In this document: positions 5,102-25,862 of the stretch, piece after piece
Numbering within the stretch: position 1 is the stretch's first letter
Layout: every line of letters starts with the position of its first letter
Source: Oscillospiraceae bacterium
GTDB lineage: Bacteria > Bacillota > Clostridia > Oscillospirales > Oscillospiraceae
Length of the DNA stretch: 34,407 nucleotides
Assembly: GCA_017622995.1 (NCBI GenBank)
Contig: JAGAQA010000050.1
Coordinates: forward strand, 1 to 34,407
Direction: 5' to 3'
Position numbers and translations under genes: made by a program
The notes under the pieces: generated by a model
Database searches by the model: none
The model's input: the letters and a program-made list of their open reading frames with translations, nothing else
Told to the model about the DNA's origin: nothing

Positions 5102-5146
5102 TATAATAGAAGAAATATTACCGTTCTTTTCGCGGGAGGTGGACAT

Positions 5147-6082
5147 ATGGCGCAGAATCAATCCCTATCCACACAGGAGGTGGCTGACATTCTCCATGTC
5201 AGCAAATCCACCATATACGATTTGATTCGCAGGGGCGAGATTCATTCCTATAAAATCGGGCGCAAGGTTCGCTTTACTCAGGATGATGTGGATGCCTATA
5301 TCGCCCGTTCCCGGCACGAGCATTCCACCCGGCCGGTCAAGAACATTGACACCCATTCCACCCTGCTGACTCCGGAAAAGGATGAATCTCCGGAGCTCAT
5401 CATCTCCGGGCAGGATGTGGTGTTGGATATCCTGGCAAATTACCTGCAGCAGGAAGGTGTCAACACGGCTCGTACATACCTCAACAGCTTTGAAGGACTG
5501 CTTTCCCTGTATCAGGATAATATCCATGTGGCAGCCTGTCACCTGTTCGACGGCTTTGACTATAATACCTCTTATGTCCGCAGCCTGATGCCGGGGATTC
5601 CCGCGGTACTGGTGAATGTCAGCTACCGGACCCAGGGCTTCTATGTCCAGAAGGGAAATCCCAAGGGGATCAAAGGCTGGTCGGACCTGGGACGGGAAGA
5701 TATCACAGTCCTGAACCGCCGAGTAGGCTCTTCTGCTCGGATCCTGATGGATACCCAGCTGAAACGGCTTGGAATTTCCGCTTCCAAAGTTAAGGGCTAC
5801 GATAAAATCATGAAATCCCATCTGACCATGGCAGCGGCCATTGCTGCGGGGGAAGCGGATCTGGCAATTGGAACGGAACGCATTTCCCGTCAGATCGAGG
5901 GACTGGATTTTATTCCGCTGCTGGAAGAACGGTTTGACTTTGTGATCAAAAAAGAAATGATGGAAACTGAAGCGGTACAGAAGCTGCTGAAGGTGCTGAA
6001 CGATCCTGCTTTCCGCAAGGAAATTGCTCATTTCTCAGGCAATGATTACCGGGATTTAGGAAAAATAATTACAGAGGTGTAA
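5147..6082 (+). CDS. HTH-PBP fusion regulator, probable tungstate/molybdate sensor
   Basis: I chose the ATG at 5147, behind GGGAGGTGG, giving 311 residues. Residues 7-54 form an excisionase/MerR-type helix-turn-helix (STQEVADILHVSKSTIYDLI, then GRKVRFTQDDVDAYI). Residues about 78-305 form a PBP-like domain (COG1910/PF12727 type), a cytoplasmic relative of molybdate-binding proteins; it shares motifs with the C-terminus of the MoeA fusion at 7309 (CHLFDGFDYN, NRRVGSSARILMD, MAAAIAAGEADLAIG). The combination suggests a factor that binds oxyanion or cofactor and controls tungsten genes. It stands between the AOR1 operon and the cofactor-synthesis genes, beside the repeats at 5020-5049. Activation versus repression cannot be read from the sequence. 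The next gene follows within 2 nt. Confidence 0.85.
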   Translation: MAQNQSLSTQEVADILHVSKSTIYDLIRRGEIHSYKIGRKVRFTQDDVDAYIARSRHEHSTRPVKNIDTHSTLLTPEKDESPELIISGQDVVLDILANYLQQEGVNTARTYLNSFEGLLSLYQDNIHVAACHLFDGFDYNTSYVRSLMPGIPAVLVNVSYRTQGFYVQKGNPKGIKGWSDLGREDITVLNRRVGSSARILMDTQLKRLGISASKVKGYDKIMKSHLTMAAAIAAGEADLAIGTERISRQIEGLDFIPLLEERFDFVIKKEMMETEAVQKLLKVLNDPAFRKEIAHFSGNDYRDLGKIITEV

Positions 6083-7308: not shown

Positions 7309-9219
7309 ATGGGATTTGAATATTTGACCAATGTGCCGCTGACGCAGGCGCGAGCTGACTATCTGAAGCTGCTGGAAGACCAGGGCTTCGCCCCCAAAAC
7401 GGAAATGATCCCCGTCTACGAGGCCTGTGGACGGGTTACTGCCCGAGCAGTCTACGCCCATATTTGCGCGCCGCACTATGCCGCCAGCGCTATGGACGGC
7501 GTAGCAGTGCGCGCAAAGGACACCTTCGGCGCAACGGAAACCACCCCGGTAACCCTGCAAAAGGATCAGTATATTTTGCTGGATACCGGCGATCCCATTC
7601 CCGAGGATCGGGATGCTGTCATTATGGTGGAAGATATCGTAAAAAATGAAGACGGTTCTATCACCATCCACGCCGCCGCCGCTCCCTGGCAGCACATCCG
7701 GCAAATCGGTGAGGATGTGTGCGCCGGAGAGATGATTTTGCCCAGCCATATGGCTGTTTCTCCTTCTGCCATCGGCGCTATGATCGCCGGCGGTGTGCTG
7801 GAGATTGAGGTCATTGCCAAGCCTGTGGTGGGAATCATCCCCACCGGAGACGAAATCATTCCCCCCTGCACAGACCCCAAGCCCGGGGATATTCTGGAAT
7901 TTAATGGTTCCATTTTCTCTGCCATGGTGAAAAGCTGGGGCGCCGATGCCGTTGTTTATCCCATCGTTCCCGACAAATTTGACCAAATCAAGGCCATGGT
8001 TTCCAGAGCCGCCGCGGAGTGCGACATGGTGATTCTCAACGCCGGCTCCTCTGCCGGGCGGGAGGACTATTCTGCCAGGGTTATTCGGGAACTGGGGCAG
8101 GTGCTGTACCACGGCATCGCCATGAAGCCCGGCAAACCCGCTATTTTGGGCTGTCAGGGGGCCAAGCCCATTCTGGGTGTTCCCGGATATCCTGTGTCCG
8201 GCATTATTGTGGTGGAACAGCTGCTGAAGCCCCTGATCGATCACTGGTTGAATGTACCCGCTGTGCCTTCTCAGTATGCAAAGGCTATCCTGACCCGTCC
8301 TGTGGTTTCGGGCCTTAAGTATCAGGAATTTGTCCGGGTGCGCATGGGCTATGTTGGAGACCGGCTCATGGCCTCTCCCTTAAGCCGTGGCAGCGGTGTG
8401 GTGTCTTCTTTTATGAAGGCCGACGGCATTCTGGAGGTTCCCCAGGGACTGGAGGGCTTTGAGGCCGGTGCGGAGGTATCGGTTCGTTTGCTCAGCCCCC
8501 TGGAAAAGCTGCGCAATACCCTGGTGGTCATCGGCAGTCATGACCCGCTGCTGGATGAGCTGGGTGATATGCTCCATCTGGAAAATAATGATATCTATAT
8601 GAGTTCCTCTCATGTGGGCTCCATGGGCGGTATTATGGCGATTCGACGTGGGGAAGCCCACGCTGCCGGCTGCCATCTGCTGAACACCGAAAACGGCGAA
8701 TACAACATTGCCTTTATGAAGAAGTATTTCCCCAAGGGCGGTGTGCGGCTGATCCGCTGCGTGGGCCGCCAGCAGGGCATGATGGTTGCAAAGGGCAACC
8801 CCCTGAACATACAGAAGTTCTCCGATATTGCCGCCAAGGGGGTGCGCTATGTCAATCGCCAGAAGGGGTCCGGCACCCGAATTTTGACGGACTATCTGTG
8901 CAAGCAGGAAAATCTCGATACCGCTGCCATCTATGGCTACGACCGGGAGGAGCTGACCCACACCTCCGTAGCGGCCCAGATTGTCAGTGGCAGTGCCGAT
9001 GCCGGTATGGGCATCTATTCTGCCGCCAAGCTCTACGGTTTGGACTTCATTCCCATCTGCATTGAGGAATACGATTTGATTATCCCCGACCACGCATGGG
9101 AAACCCCCATGGTGCGTCAGCTGATTGCGACTCTGAAAAGCGATGGGTTCCGGGATAAGATTCTTTCTCTGGGCGGCTATACCGTGGAAAATCCCGGAGA
9201 AATCATACCTCTGAATTGA
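7309..9219 (+). CDS. MoeA copy 2 fused to a PBP-like (PF12727-type) domain
   Basis: The first 400 or so residues are a second MoeA: SAMDGVAVRAKDTFG, ILLDTGDPIPEDRDAV, PTGDEIIPP, ILNAGSSAGREDY, KPGKPAILG and VPGYPVSGII. Residues about 405-630 are a PBP-like domain homologous to the sensor domain of the regulator at 5147 (HVGSMGGIMAI, CHLLNTENGEYN, NRQKGSGTRILTDYL, SGSADAGMGI). The total of 636 residues matches the MoeA/PBP fusion class. The enzyme domain would catalyse metal insertion; the appended domain may hold or select the oxyanion, or report cofactor status (inference). It starts behind AGGAGGATA and its stop overlaps the region just before the next gene. Confidence 0.9.
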   Translation: MGFEYLTNVPLTQARADYLKLLEDQGFAPKTEMIPVYEACGRVTARAVYAHICAPHYAASAMDGVAVRAKDTFGATETTPVTLQKDQYILLDTGDPIPEDRDAVIMVEDIVKNEDGSITIHAAAAPWQHIRQIGEDVCAGEMILPSHMAVSPSAIGAMIAGGVLEIEVIAKPVVGIIPTGDEIIPPCTDPKPGDILEFNGSIFSAMVKSWGADAVVYPIVPDKFDQIKAMVSRAAAECDMVILNAGSSAGREDYSARVIRELGQVLYHGIAMKPGKPAILGCQGAKPILGVPGYPVSGIIVVEQLLKPLIDHWLNVPAVPSQYAKAILTRPVVSGLKYQEFVRVRMGYVGDRLMASPLSRGSGVVSSFMKADGILEVPQGLEGFEAGAEVSVRLLSPLEKLRNTLVVIGSHDPLLDELGDMLHLENNDIYMSSSHVGSMGGIMAIRRGEAHAAGCHLLNTENGEYNIAFMKKYFPKGGVRLIRCVGRQQGMMVAKGNPLNIQKFSDIAAKGVRYVNRQKGSGTRILTDYLCKQENLDTAAIYGYDREELTHTSVAAQIVSGSADAGMGIYSAAKLYGLDFIPICIEEYDLIIPDHAWETPMVRQLIATLKSDGFRDKILSLGGYTVENPGEIIPLN

Positions 9220-21401: not shown

Positions 21402-22451
21402 ATGAAAAAGATTCTTTCTGCGCTTCTGGTCGCTGTTATGCTGCTGGGTTTGACTGCCTGCGGCGCAGCCCAGACACCCACCGAAACCGCTGCTCCTACC
21501 GCTGCCCCCACCCAGGCGCCTGCCGCCGCGGCGACAGAAGCGCCTACCGAAGCTCCCACTGAGGCTGCTCTGGTGGTGGACACCTGCATCCTGAAGGAAG
21601 CGGACGACAAGATGCTCAACACCTACACCGCCATCGCCGTGAATCCCGAGGCGCCTTTCACCGATGCTGACGGCAATGCCGTTTCCGACGTCGCTGTGAA
21701 CACTGCCGGTGCCGACGCCCTGATTCAGTGGCTGCTGAGCCAGGAAGTTCTGGATCTGGCCGGGGAGTACGGTGTCGCGGAATATGGTGAGCACCTGTTC
21801 TATGTCAAGGACAATGCTCCCGTCTATGCCGGTGAGATTGCACCCGCTACGGAGGAAACCAAGGTCATCCGCCTGTCCACCACCACCTCTGTCAATGACT
21901 CCGGCCTGCTGGGTTACCTGCTGCCCGTGTTTGAATCCACCTACGGCTACACCGTGGAAGTCCAGTCTGCCGGTACCGGCAAGGCCATCAACGCCGCCAA
22001 GTTCGGCAATGCCGACCTGATTCTGGTGCACTCCAAGAGCCAGGAGGAGGCTTTCGTTGCCGACGGTTTTGCCCGTGTTGTGGACGGCTTCGAGGCCGAG
22101 CGCATTTCCTTCCTCTACAACTACTTCGTCCTGTGCGGCCCCTCTGCTGACCCCGCCGGTGTTAAGGACAGCGCTTCCGTTCTGGATGCCTTTGCCGCCA
22201 TTGCCGAGGGCAAGTACACCTTCGTCTCCCGTGGCGATGCTTCCGGCACCCACACCAAGGAGCTGAGCCTGTGGCCTGAGGCTCTGGGCATCACCAAGGA
22301 AGCCGAGTCCTTTGCGGATTACACCGACTGGTACGTTTCCGCCAATACCGGCATGGGCGCCTGCCTGGTCATGGCGGAGGAGATGGGCGCCTACATCCTC
22401 ACCGACAAGGCTACCTTCCTGACCTTTGTTGCCAACGACGGCGTGATGTAA
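21402..22451 (+). CDS. tupA: Tungstate-binding lipoprotein TupA, apparently circularly permuted
   Basis: 349 residues from ATG 21402 (TTGGAGG upstream). A lipoprotein signal (LLGLTAC, lipid Cys20) leads into an Ala/Pro/Thr-rich linker to about residue 56. Residues 61-135 (ILKEADDKMLNTYTAIAVNP, then IQWLLSQEVLDLAGEYGVAEYGEHLF) match what is normally the C-terminal end of TupA. Residues 155-349 match the usual N-terminal start onward: IRLSTTTSVNDSGLLGYLLP with the TTTS anion-binding motif, SAGTGKAI, LVHSKSQEEAFVADGF, TFVSRGDASGTHTKELSLW, GMGACLVMAEEMGAYILTD. The protein stops at TFLTFVANDGVM, just where the displaced segment would normally follow. All pieces of one domain are present once, in rotated order. 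It binds tungstate outside the membrane and feeds TupB/TupC. Confidence 0.9.
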   Translation: MKKILSALLVAVMLLGLTACGAAQTPTETAAPTAAPTQAPAAAATEAPTEAPTEAALVVDTCILKEADDKMLNTYTAIAVNPEAPFTDADGNAVSDVAVNTAGADALIQWLLSQEVLDLAGEYGVAEYGEHLFYVKDNAPVYAGEIAPATEETKVIRLSTTTSVNDSGLLGYLLPVFESTYGYTVEVQSAGTGKAINAAKFGNADLILVHSKSQEEAFVADGFARVVDGFEAERISFLYNYFVLCGPSADPAGVKDSASVLDAFAAIAEGKYTFVSRGDASGTHTKELSLWPEALGITKEAESFADYTDWYVSANTGMGACLVMAEEMGAYILTDKATFLTFVANDGVM

Positions 22452-22532: not shown

Positions 22533-23219
22533 ATGGGCAGTGCGCTGCAAAAGGCAATCGACCTGATTTTGTCGGCGGATGCGGAGCTGATTAACATATT
22601 GTGCGTAACCGCCAGGATGAGCATCCAAAGCTCTCTGATCGCCCTTTTGCTGGGCGTACCCCTGGGAATCTGGCTGGGGGCTTGTAAGTTCCCCGGCAGA
22701 AACGCCCTTGTGGTGCTGAACCGGACGCTGATGGGAATGCCTCCGGTGGTCTGTGGACTGCTGTTCTATATGTTATTTTCCGGTGTTGGCCCGCTGCGGC
22801 ATATGAAGCTGCTGTTTACGGTAAAGATTATGGTCATGGCCCAGGTGGTGCTGATCACGCCCATCGTTGTGGGCAATATGGAAACTTATGTGGCGGGAAT
22901 TGCCCCAGCCATCCGGGAGACGGCAAAGGGACTGGGGCTGGGCGGCTGCAAAACCTTTCTTCTGATGTGCGGAGAATGCGTCTATCAGATTTTCTCTGCC
23001 TATCTTCTGGCCTTTGCCCGTTCCATTGCGGAGGTGGGCGCGGTGTCCATGGTGGGCGGCGCCATTGCCTGGAAAACCAACGTCATGACCACCGCCATCA
23101 TGCAGTATACCAACCGGGGCAGTTTCTCCCTGGGCATCGCGCTGGGCATGATTCTTCTGGCGGTGTCGCTGCTGGTGAACATCGTGATTTCCCTGCTGCA
23201 AAGGAGGCTGAGCCGATGA
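22533..23219 (+). CDS. tupB: Tungstate ABC transporter permease TupB
   Basis: 228 residues from ATG 22533. Several hydrophobic spans are visible, for example SSLIALLLGVPLGIWLGA, PPVVCGLLFYMLFSGVGPL and LGMILLAVSLLVNIVISLL. The coupling loop region is ETAKGLGLGGCKTFLLMCGE, and the later AFARSIAEVGAVSMVGGAI is typical of TupB/ModB-like permeases. It forms the membrane channel for tungstate delivered by TupA. Its stop overlaps the tupC start (ATGA). Confidence 0.93.
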   Translation: MGSALQKAIDLILSADAELINILCVTARMSIQSSLIALLLGVPLGIWLGACKFPGRNALVVLNRTLMGMPPVVCGLLFYMLFSGVGPLRHMKLLFTVKIMVMAQVVLITPIVVGNMETYVAGIAPAIRETAKGLGLGGCKTFLLMCGECVYQIFSAYLLAFARSIAEVGAVSMVGGAIAWKTNVMTTAIMQYTNRGSFSLGIALGMILLAVSLLVNIVISLLQRRLSR

Positions 23220-23863
23220 AACTTCCTGCCTTTATCAAAACCTATGACGGTGTCGCTGTCCTGGATTTTCCCGGAATGGAAATAGAGCCCGGAAAAATTT
23301 ACGCTGTAATTGGTGCCAACGGCAGCGGTAAGTCTACCTTTGCCAAAATCCTGTCGGGCGTTCTCCCTGCCGATCGGAAAGTGCAGCTGCCCCAGTCTGT
23401 GGGCTATCTGCCCCAGAAGCCTTACGCCTTTCGTATGAGTACGAAAAAAAATATTCTTCTGGGTGGTTCTGAGGAAGCCAAAGCCAATGAACTTATGTGG
23501 GCGCTCCAGATATCCCATCTGGAAAAGAAACGGGCGGATCGGCTCTCCGGTGGAGAAACTGCTCGCATGGCCATTGCCCGGCTGATGATGAAGGCTTTTG
23601 ACCTGGTGATTTTGGACGAGCCAACCGCCGCCATGGACATCGAGACCACCGCCGCCGCGGAAAGCCTGATTCTGGACTATACCGGTGCAACCGGATGCGC
23701 CACAATTTTGGTGACCCATTCTCTCCAGCAGGCTCGCAGAGTCGCGGACGAAGCGCTGTTTTTCTACAAGGGAAAGCTGATGGAATCCGGGGCAAAGGAA
23801 CGGCTTCTATATCATCCAACCCAGCCGGAGACAAAGCGTTTTCTGGAATTTTACGGACAGTGA
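23216..23863 (+). CDS. tupC: Tungstate ABC transporter ATPase TupC
   Basis: 215 residues. Walker A GANGSGKST, Q-loop GYLPQKPYAF, ABC signature LSGGETARMAIAR, Walker B LVILDEPTAAMD and switch histidine in LVTHS are all intact. The protein is short and lacks a C-terminal TOBE regulatory domain, as expected for TupC rather than ModC. It begins within the last codon of tupB (ATGA overlap). A terminator lies behind it. Confidence 0.93.
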   Translation: MKLPAFIKTYDGVAVLDFPGMEIEPGKIYAVIGANGSGKSTFAKILSGVLPADRKVQLPQSVGYLPQKPYAFRMSTKKNILLGGSEEAKANELMWALQISHLEKKRADRLSGGETARMAIARLMMKAFDLVILDEPTAAMDIETTAAAESLILDYTGATGCATILVTHSLQQARRVADEALFFYKGKLMESGAKERLLYHPTQPETKRFLEFYGQ

Positions 23864-23954: not shown

Positions 23955-25862
23955 ATGCAATCCAAGTATTCCGGCTATATGGGAAAAATCATGGAGGTGG
24001 ATTTGACCACCGAAACGGTCCGGGAATATCCCTGGTCCGACGAACAGCGGGAGCTTTACCTGGGCGGTAAAATCATGGCTGCCCGGATTCTGTGCGACCA
24101 CCTGACCGGTAAGGAGACCGCTTTTTCCGAGGAGAACTGGGTGGTCATTGCCACCGGCCCCTTGACAGGCACCGGCGCTCCCAGTTCTGCCCGATTCGAT
24201 GTTTCCGCGCTGTCTCCCCAGACGGGGATTCTGGCTTCCTCCAACTGCGGCGGAAGCTTCGGCTTCCATCTGAAAAAGGCCGGATTCGATGCCCTGATTC
24301 TGAAAGGCAAGTGCCGGAGCCGTCGCTGGCTGGAAATCAAAGACGGGGAATTCCTGTTCCACGACGCGGATGACCTGTGGGGGATGAAGGTAGATGAATG
24401 TCAGGAGGCACTGGCGAAGCTGGTGGATGCAAAACGGTTTGGTAAGCTCTGCATCGGCCCGGCAGGAGAAAACCTTGTCAAGTACGCCGGCATTATGAGC
24501 GATGAACGGGCCGCCGGACGTACCGGCATGGGCGCGGTACTGGGCTGGAAGAATCTGAAAGCCATCACCGCCAGCGGAACCAAAACCATCCCGGTACATA
24601 ACCCGGAGAAGTCCAGCCAGTGGTGCAAAAAGTGGATTCAGTATCTCCAAAAGCATCCTCTGACAGGTCAGCAGCTGCCCCGTCTGGGCACCGCCGGTCT
24701 GGTCAGCTCTATGCAGATGATCGGCATTCTGTCCACGAAAAACTATTCCCAGGGTCAGTACGAGGACTTCGACATGGTCAGTGGAGAAACGCTGGCAGAG
24801 GAATTTAACATCACCAACAAGGGCTGCCTGACCTGTCCCATTCGCTGTGCCAGAACGGTCAAGGTTCAGGGGAAGGCCGTGAAAGGTCCGGAATTGGAAA
24901 CCCTGGGACTGCTGGGCGGAAATATCTGCAACAATGATCTGCAAAAGATTCTGGACTGGAACTACCAGCTGGATCAGCTGGGTATGGACACCATCTCCAC
25001 TGCCAACACCATCGCCTGGGCCATGGAGGCAAATGAAAAGGGGCTGTGGGACAATGGGCTGCGCTTCGGACAAACCGATAACCTGTCTCAGATTTTTGAG
25101 GACATCGCCCATCGTCGCGGTATCGGCGATGAGCTGGCAGAGGGAAGTAAACGGCTGTCCGAAAAGTACGGCGGCAAGGAATTTGCCATGCAGTCCAAGG
25201 GATTGGAGCTGGCAGCCTATGAGCCTCGCCGGGCCGTGGGTCAGGGCCTCGGCTACGCCGTTTCCAACCGGGGCGGCTGCCACCTGAACGGCGGCTATCT
25301 GGTGATTATGGAGGGCCTTGGCCTTCACATGGATGCCCAAACCCCTAAGGCAAAGGCAGATCTCACCATGACCTTCCAGGATTTGATGGAAACCATTTCC
25401 GCCTCCGGTCAGTGCCTGTTTACTTCCTATGCCTTCTTCCCGGGCTTCCTGCTGACGAAGCCAAACGGGATCGTTACCAAAACCGTCAACCTTGCGGCGC
25501 CCCACATCGGCTGGGCGGTGCGCCTGATAAATAAGTGCCCCAGAATCGCGGCCCTTCATCTGCCCATCTTCCAGCATACCAAGATGATTGAGCTGGCGGT
25601 GGGTATGAAGATGAACTTTGGCCGTTATCTGGAAATCGGTGAACGTGGCTATACCATGGAACGCTACATCAATACCAAATTCGGCATCAGCGCTGCCGAC
25701 GATAAGCTGCCCAAACGACTCACGGATATACCTCAGGATCCCAACAATCCCAAAACCAAAGTGCCTCTGGATACTATGAAGAAGACCTACTACCAGGCCC
25801 GTGGGTGGGATCACAACGGTATCCCCACGGAGAGGACCTTGCGGCGGCTGAAAATCAAATGA
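23955..25862 (+). CDS. aor: Tungsten aldehyde:ferredoxin oxidoreductase 2 (AOR family)
   Basis: 635 residues from ATG 23955, 7 nt behind GGGAGG; ATG 23949 is in frame but too close. The [4Fe-4S] ligands are C291, C294, C298 (CLTCPIRC) and C487 (GQCLF). His443 in GGCHLNGGY and the pterin-binding DERAAGRTGMG segment (183-193) are present. It differs clearly from AOR1 and is about 30 residues longer, with an insertion around residues 495-555 (FPGFLLTKPNGIVTKTVN and the hydrophobic stretch after it) where AOR1 is compact. It is co-translated with a MoaD-like carrier and an iron alcohol dehydrogenase, which suggests action on an aldehyde formed from or convertible to an alcohol. Substrate specificity cannot be read from sequence. 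Confidence 0.95.
   Translation: MQSKYSGYMGKIMEVDLTTETVREYPWSDEQRELYLGGKIMAARILCDHLTGKETAFSEENWVVIATGPLTGTGAPSSARFDVSALSPQTGILASSNCGGSFGFHLKKAGFDALILKGKCRSRRWLEIKDGEFLFHDADDLWGMKVDECQEALAKLVDAKRFGKLCIGPAGENLVKYAGIMSDERAAGRTGMGAVLGWKNLKAITASGTKTIPVHNPEKSSQWCKKWIQYLQKHPLTGQQLPRLGTAGLVSSMQMIGILSTKNYSQGQYEDFDMVSGETLAEEFNITNKGCLTCPIRCARTVKVQGKAVKGPELETLGLLGGNICNNDLQKILDWNYQLDQLGMDTISTANTIAWAMEANEKGLWDNGLRFGQTDNLSQIFEDIAHRRGIGDELAEGSKRLSEKYGGKEFAMQSKGLELAAYEPRRAVGQGLGYAVSNRGGCHLNGGYLVIMEGLGLHMDAQTPKAKADLTMTFQDLMETISASGQCLFTSYAFFPGFLLTKPNGIVTKTVNLAAPHIGWAVRLINKCPRIAALHLPIFQHTKMIELAVGMKMNFGRYLEIGERGYTMERYINTKFGISAADDKLPKRLTDIPQDPNNPKTKVPLDTMKKTYYQARGWDHNGIPTERTLRRLKIK

Follow-up and report, generated by a model that had tools for sequence, protein, structure and literature searches.

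Two kinds of described protein come closest to the one reported here. In the canonical tungstate-binding protein TupA of DaG20, lobe B comprises residues 91-200 and lobe A is built from two stretches, 2-76 and 201-251; the oxyanion site includes Thr9-11, Ser12, His59, Arg118, Thr124 and Asp170 (PMC5517513). Tp0684 (TpMglB-2) of Treponema pallidum, a ligand-binding protein with a lipid tether, is a naturally occurring circular permutation; the study that described it considers tethering and puts forward a subclass for it, Type Ic / Cluster Bc (PMC4990184). We analyzed a stretch of 34,407 nucleotides from an Oscillospiraceae bacterium (“the window”; contig JAGAQA010000050.1 of GCA_017622995.1, a draft genome of 66 contigs), in which one gene very probably encodes a TupA that has undergone natural circular permutation and serves as substrate-binding lipoprotein to a tungstate importer, TupABC.

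The gene (21402..22451, forward strand, as are its parts and the three genes that follow it) encodes 349 amino acids plus a stop codon, as judged from the ORF translation and profile matches. A lipoprotein signal peptide (21402..21461), with the lipobox LTAC and Cys20 recognised by eye, precedes an Ala/Pro/Thr-rich tether of 36 residues read from the translation (residues 21-56; 21462..21569), which fits the linker-based tethering proposed in the original prediction. There follows a stretch that we call segment B (residues 57-133; 21570..21800), identified by alignments and a profile search as the counterpart of the canonical TupA C-terminus, which holds the last strand of lobe B, a crossover and the C-terminal part of lobe A, and carries the motifs IAVNP (from residue 78) and IQWLLSQEV (from residue 108). 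A bridge of 23 residues (residues 134-156; 21801..21869), delimited by a pattern search, leads from the old C-terminus to the old N-terminus. Segment A (residues 157-349; 21870..22448), defined by alignments and a profile match, extends from the TupA N-terminus as far as the last lobe B helix; it opens with RLSTTTS, which contains the TTTS oxyanion-site motif (residues 160-163; 21879..21890), includes the SRGDASGTH motif (residues 276-284; 22227..22253), and brings the chain to its end at TFLTFVANDGVM. The usual TupA order, with the N-terminal part first and a WLLS-type segment last, is thus not followed. Bridge length does not vary among the 141 ORFs that match the search pattern, and the distance from the lipobox Cys to the domain has a median of 35 in permuted proteins (97 of 146 ORFs with a recognisable lipobox) and of 20 in canonical ones (34 of 58 ORFs).

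The curated NCBIfam model of TupA (NF041772) covers only residues 155-345 of the window protein, at profile positions 16-192 of 266. When ten relatives were scanned with this model, the match ended at position 193 in both permuted proteins, whereas in the eight canonical ones it continued to 250-263. The score of the window protein, 125.6 bits, is below the curated cutoff of 400 bits; however, all eight canonical relatives tested also miss it (193-253 bits), and thus the cutoff does not discriminate here. Residues 57-349 score 536 against a single copy of the canonical relative L059 and 669 against a doubled (tandem) copy, whereas the best of 200 controls in which residues 57-151 were shuffled reached 568 against the doubled sequence. 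The doubled parent aligned better than the single copy for all eight canonical proteins, as expected of a circular permutation, with gains of 82-133 points and with a doubled score above the shuffled maximum in each case. The original prediction, which had named the tandem alignment as a check, was therefore right that a C-terminal TupA segment lies ahead of the remainder: profile limits, doubled alignment and the order of profile matches (see below) all bear this out. Its claim that each piece occurs once also held, as no second recognisable copy of either segment was present in any of 210 ORFs with segment A. It was right about the order and slightly off about the limits, since the segment that it started at residue 61 begins near residue 57-60.

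The position of the cut likewise had to be revised. In the published numbering (chain number minus 23, with residues mapped by hand from alignments), segment A ends near DaG20 residue 180 and segment B starts near residue 188 in hand-read alignments. The cut therefore falls inside lobe B, in the loop that joins its last helix to its last strand, rather than at the lobe boundary. To judge from these alignments, lobe A would be continuous in the permuted chain, and both chain ends and the lipid anchor, which formerly belonged to lobe A, would lie on lobe B. All of the named oxyanion-site residues have counterparts within segment A, namely Thr160-162, Ser163, His210, Arg277 (DaG20 Arg118), Thr283 (Thr124) and Asp335, following the site as described in PMC5517513. 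In an alignment of 56 permuted sequences, these columns are invariant except for position 160 (Ser in one of the 56), and a search of the permuted ORFs, counting duplicates, recovered the TTTS pattern in 145 of 146. Because the site is retained in this way, the permuted TupA should bind tungstate in its cleft.

Downstream of the permuted gene are tupB, encoding the permease (22533..23219; NF038017, 1.1e-50; NF041773 TupB, 1.9e-42 and 145.6 bits, below the cutoff of 320), tupC, encoding the ATPase (23216..23863; PF00005, 1.8e-23), and a gene for an enzyme of the aldehyde ferredoxin oxidoreductase (AFOR) family, a tungsten oxidoreductase family (23955..25862; PF01314, PF02730). Two AFOR-family enzymes are encoded in the window, as are MoeA, a MoeA-PBP fusion, an HTH_17-PBP protein, a molybdopterin oxidoreductase and FdhD. 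MoeA-PBP has been reported to co-occur with TupA in 86% of cases (PMC11733289). The fusion (7309-9219) joins MoeA to a PBP domain (PF12727) and corresponds to a proposed tungsten-cofactor enzyme (PMC11733289). The HTH_17 plus PBP_like protein (5138-6079) adjoins moeA and is perhaps a metal-responsive regulator. No known riboswitch or other RNA family reached its gathering score within the window. Among permuted loci, duplicates included, tupB lies downstream in 136/136 that have 900 or more flanking bases, and tupB with tupC in 78/78 that have 1700 or more; for canonical loci, with the window proteins as queries, the counts are 43/56 for tupB and 12/13 for both genes.

The permuted gene is also under purifying selection: dN is lower than dS in both segments in all six comparisons with hand-picked close relatives, while dS of the short bridge was not computable in two of the six. 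Taken together, the downstream tupBC, the tungsten-related genes of the window, the selection and the fixed bridge make capture of tungstate for TupBC the best reading, in which the permuted TupA would pass its ligand on to TupB. The main competing idea is that this descendant of TupA has changed its specificity, to molybdate or another oxyanion. We consider this unlikely. The branch to the permuted clade is long (0.52), there are insertions relative to the canonical proteins L059 and L082, and specificity is not readable from sequence alone; against this, the oxyanion-site residues published in PMC5517513 are kept, tupBC lie downstream, and the window holds two genes of tungsten-oxidoreductase families together with the MoeA-PBP gene.

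We propose a chain that runs from the lipid anchor through a flexible tether into the last strand of lobe B, over a crossover into the C-terminal part of lobe A, and then through the 23-residue bridge into the N-terminal part of lobe A and over a second crossover into the rest of lobe B. Once folded, this chain should restore the same two-lobed flytrap, and the old termini that the bridge now spans are presumably close together. Consistent with this, the permuted domain is confidently modelled with a predicted two-lobed fold of the TupA/ModA type, which belongs to class type II. AlphaFold2 gave a pLDDT of 93.0 and a pTM of 0.84 for residues 56-349 as a monomer (56 permuted rows). Segment A modelled without segment B reached only 76.3 and 0.59, for which the shallower alignment of 34 rows is a partial confounder, and most of the loss lay in the first 90 residues of segment A, its lobe A part. 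The best three PDB matches in Foldseek were 3lr1, 3muq and 5my5. Their alignments span 195-199 columns, which equals the length of segment A and is what a sequential aligner should give. Superposition was moderate on 3lr1 and 5my5 (TM by target 0.61 and 0.65) and poor on 3muq (TM 0.30/0.37, rmsd 8.6).

A domain-swapped oligomer, in which segment B completes lobe A of a neighbouring molecule and the protein would function as a dimer or a chain, appears improbable, and somewhat more so than a change in specificity. A bridge of this length might permit such an exchange, and the AlphaFold model is of a monomer only; on the other hand, that monomer is modelled with confidence, and the single bridge length across the 141 pattern-matching ORFs suggests a defined path.

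Much less credible is the possibility that an unrelated domain, residues 57-133, has been joined to a truncated TupA. It is true that the curated TupA model and Pfam mark the second part of the protein only. However, segment B and the C-terminal end of the canonical protein L059 have identical residues at 38 of 68 aligned positions (112 of 172 for segment A), and an HMM built only from permuted B segments matches 53 of 53 distinct canonical TupA-like ORFs, preselected as carrying both segments, with i-E below 1e-3 and always downstream of segment A, as opposed to 0/53 reversed sequences. The lower model confidence of lobe A without segment B, subject to the shallower alignment, points the same way. 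Segment A is readily matched to the solved TupA chains by phmmer (3muq, 2.9e-43; 3lr1, 9.6e-40; 5my5, 5.3e-34), whereas segment B alone matches them weakly (i-E of 1.2, 100 and 89 for 3muq, 3lr1 and 5my5, respectively); the strong homology of segment B thus comes from closer canonical relatives. We rejected the extra-domain reading on the doubled-alignment and HMM results, and so the first of the two outcomes that the original prediction had named as fatal to the permutation did not materialize. The second, an assembly error or chimeric contig, is suggested only by the 66-contig draft and has a vanishingly small chance of being correct, given that the permuted order recurs in 107 distinct ORFs, in 27 genera of the family sample, on the single-contig genome G212 and in each of the best 80 of 249 named relatives, and that dN is lower than dS both before and after the bridge.

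The same order beside tupB, for which the original prediction had suggested a search of gut genomes, was found repeatedly in related genomes. The 107 distinct permuted ORFs, delimited from stop to stop, come from 146 collected, and the one on G212 lies in a 4.3 Mb genome in one contig. The window genome was included in every sample, and other genomes also recur between samples. In the genus sample, 21/136 genomes match, 19 with the permuted order and both segments and two with fragments (G114, G109). In the family sample, matches were obtained in 53/400 genomes, comprising 41 permuted (40 checked by segment and G392 called by query span alone), 10 canonical and two odd cases (G176, G380); the permuted members span the 27 genera noted above, counted by hand. 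Permuted proteins account for four of the matches in the order sample (9/394 genomes) and four of those in the class sample (47/391). In the phylum sample (186/398 genomes), only the window genome reaches segment B among the matches listed, and all 20 ORFs that were fetched and classed are canonical. From the family sample upwards, at most five candidates were scored per genome, so that a second TupA could be missed. For the window genome, all 38 candidates were scored and the permuted gene was the sole TupA-like gene found, 13 other matches lying within query residues 1-119. The best 80 of the 249 named relatives are all titled as MAGs or uncultured, with 40 labelled Oscillospiraceae, nine Ruminococcaceae, seven Lachnospiraceae, and the rest with other Clostridia labels or none. 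Among plasmids, 116 records matched, none over more than 80% of the query, and the ten matches listed fell within residues 146-346 only.

In a tree of 117 sequences (65 permuted, 52 canonical), a branch with an SH-aLRT of 100 separates all permuted proteins from the canonical ones; their nesting as a clade among canonical TupA depends on the midpoint root. With this rooting, the position of the permuted clade among canonical proteins marks it as an apparent descendant of TupA, and a single clade so placed indicates one origin. The nearest canonical relatives are L059 (G460), L082 (G744) and L060 (G184), whose segment A is 63%, 60% and 52% identical to that of the window protein over the matched part. 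Permuted proteins occur in the genus of L059 (g102) as well, and one of them, L054, branches off first within the permuted clade. The clade further contains proteins of G1229, G1072 and G916, which belong to other orders of the class, and of G620 and G632, which belong to another family of the order; this suggests either transfer or contaminated assemblies. Circular permutations can arise by tandem duplication, fusion and trimming, and the permuted TupA may have originated in this way. A tandem or part-duplicated intermediate, with a second recognisable segment copy, was found in 0/210 ORFs containing segment A.

Several divergent or odd relatives were also encountered. L069:1668-2768 (G176) encodes a divergent orphan lipoprotein that has the permuted order and lacks TTTS; identity to permuted TupA is 24-28% over residues 44-361 of this protein. 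No tupB or tupC match occurs in 4.7 kb around this gene, and its neighbours appear by eye to encode a PQQ-type repeat protein, a nucleotidyltransferase and an acyltransferase. L070:2002-2607 (G380) is a truncated, divergent permuted TupA-like ORF of 201 aa without a tupBC match, possibly a decaying gene, that adjoins an apparent glycyl-radical activating enzyme (by eye). In L048 (G419), a match to permuted TupA contains a single in-frame TAG, after which segments B and A stand together in one ORF. Among proteins of canonical order, L087 (G632) is a divergent TupA-like ORF in which TTTS is replaced by TTIG; it occurs alongside a permuted TupA in the same genome, and the stretch upstream resembles a LysM domain by eye. 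In L175, canonical-order segments A and B occupy separate ORFs, as if frameshifted, and L197 and L198 (G938, G1035) are paired, adjacent canonical-order TupA-like genes of which one is divergent.

We lean modestly towards a broader interpretation, in which these proteins form a permuted subclass of type II binding proteins, undescribed in the literature searched, that arose once within TupA in gut Clostridia, replaced the usual TupA in many of these bacteria, reached other orders as well, moved its tether to the opposite lobe and began to yield orphan paralogs without TTTS, such as L069. A literature search, with most subscription papers and bioRxiv preprints outside its scope, returned no permuted TupA among the matches listed, and Tp0684 was the only natural permuted binding protein among them. 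As the curated TupA profile covers segment A only, surveys of tungsten use may record permuted proteins in truncated form or under a wrong name. Because the canonical sister, the moved segment and the single origin are all visible, close natural pairs make it possible to test how relocation of the tether and chain ends affects folding, hinge motion and permease docking.

With canonical TupA (5my5 from DaG20 and GsTupA 3lr1), the window protein shares TTTS, SRGDxSGTH and the site His, Arg, Thr and Asp (PMC5517513), as well as the predicted two-lobed fold and an operon with tupB and tupC. It differs in having the C-terminal segment at the N-terminus, in an anchor that would enter lobe B rather than lobe A, and in its 23-residue bridge. 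The canonical sisters L059, L082 and L060 keep the A-then-B order, unlike the window protein, which, compared with L059, also carries three insertions (about 11, 7 and 7 residues). Tp0684 has a Type I fold and binds D-glucose; its first three N-lobe strands have moved to the C-terminus, and it has a fourth crossover (PMC4990184). The permuted TupA is cut at a different place, and whereas the moved part is a poor sequence match in Tp0684 (PMC4990184), in the permuted TupA it is clearly alignable.
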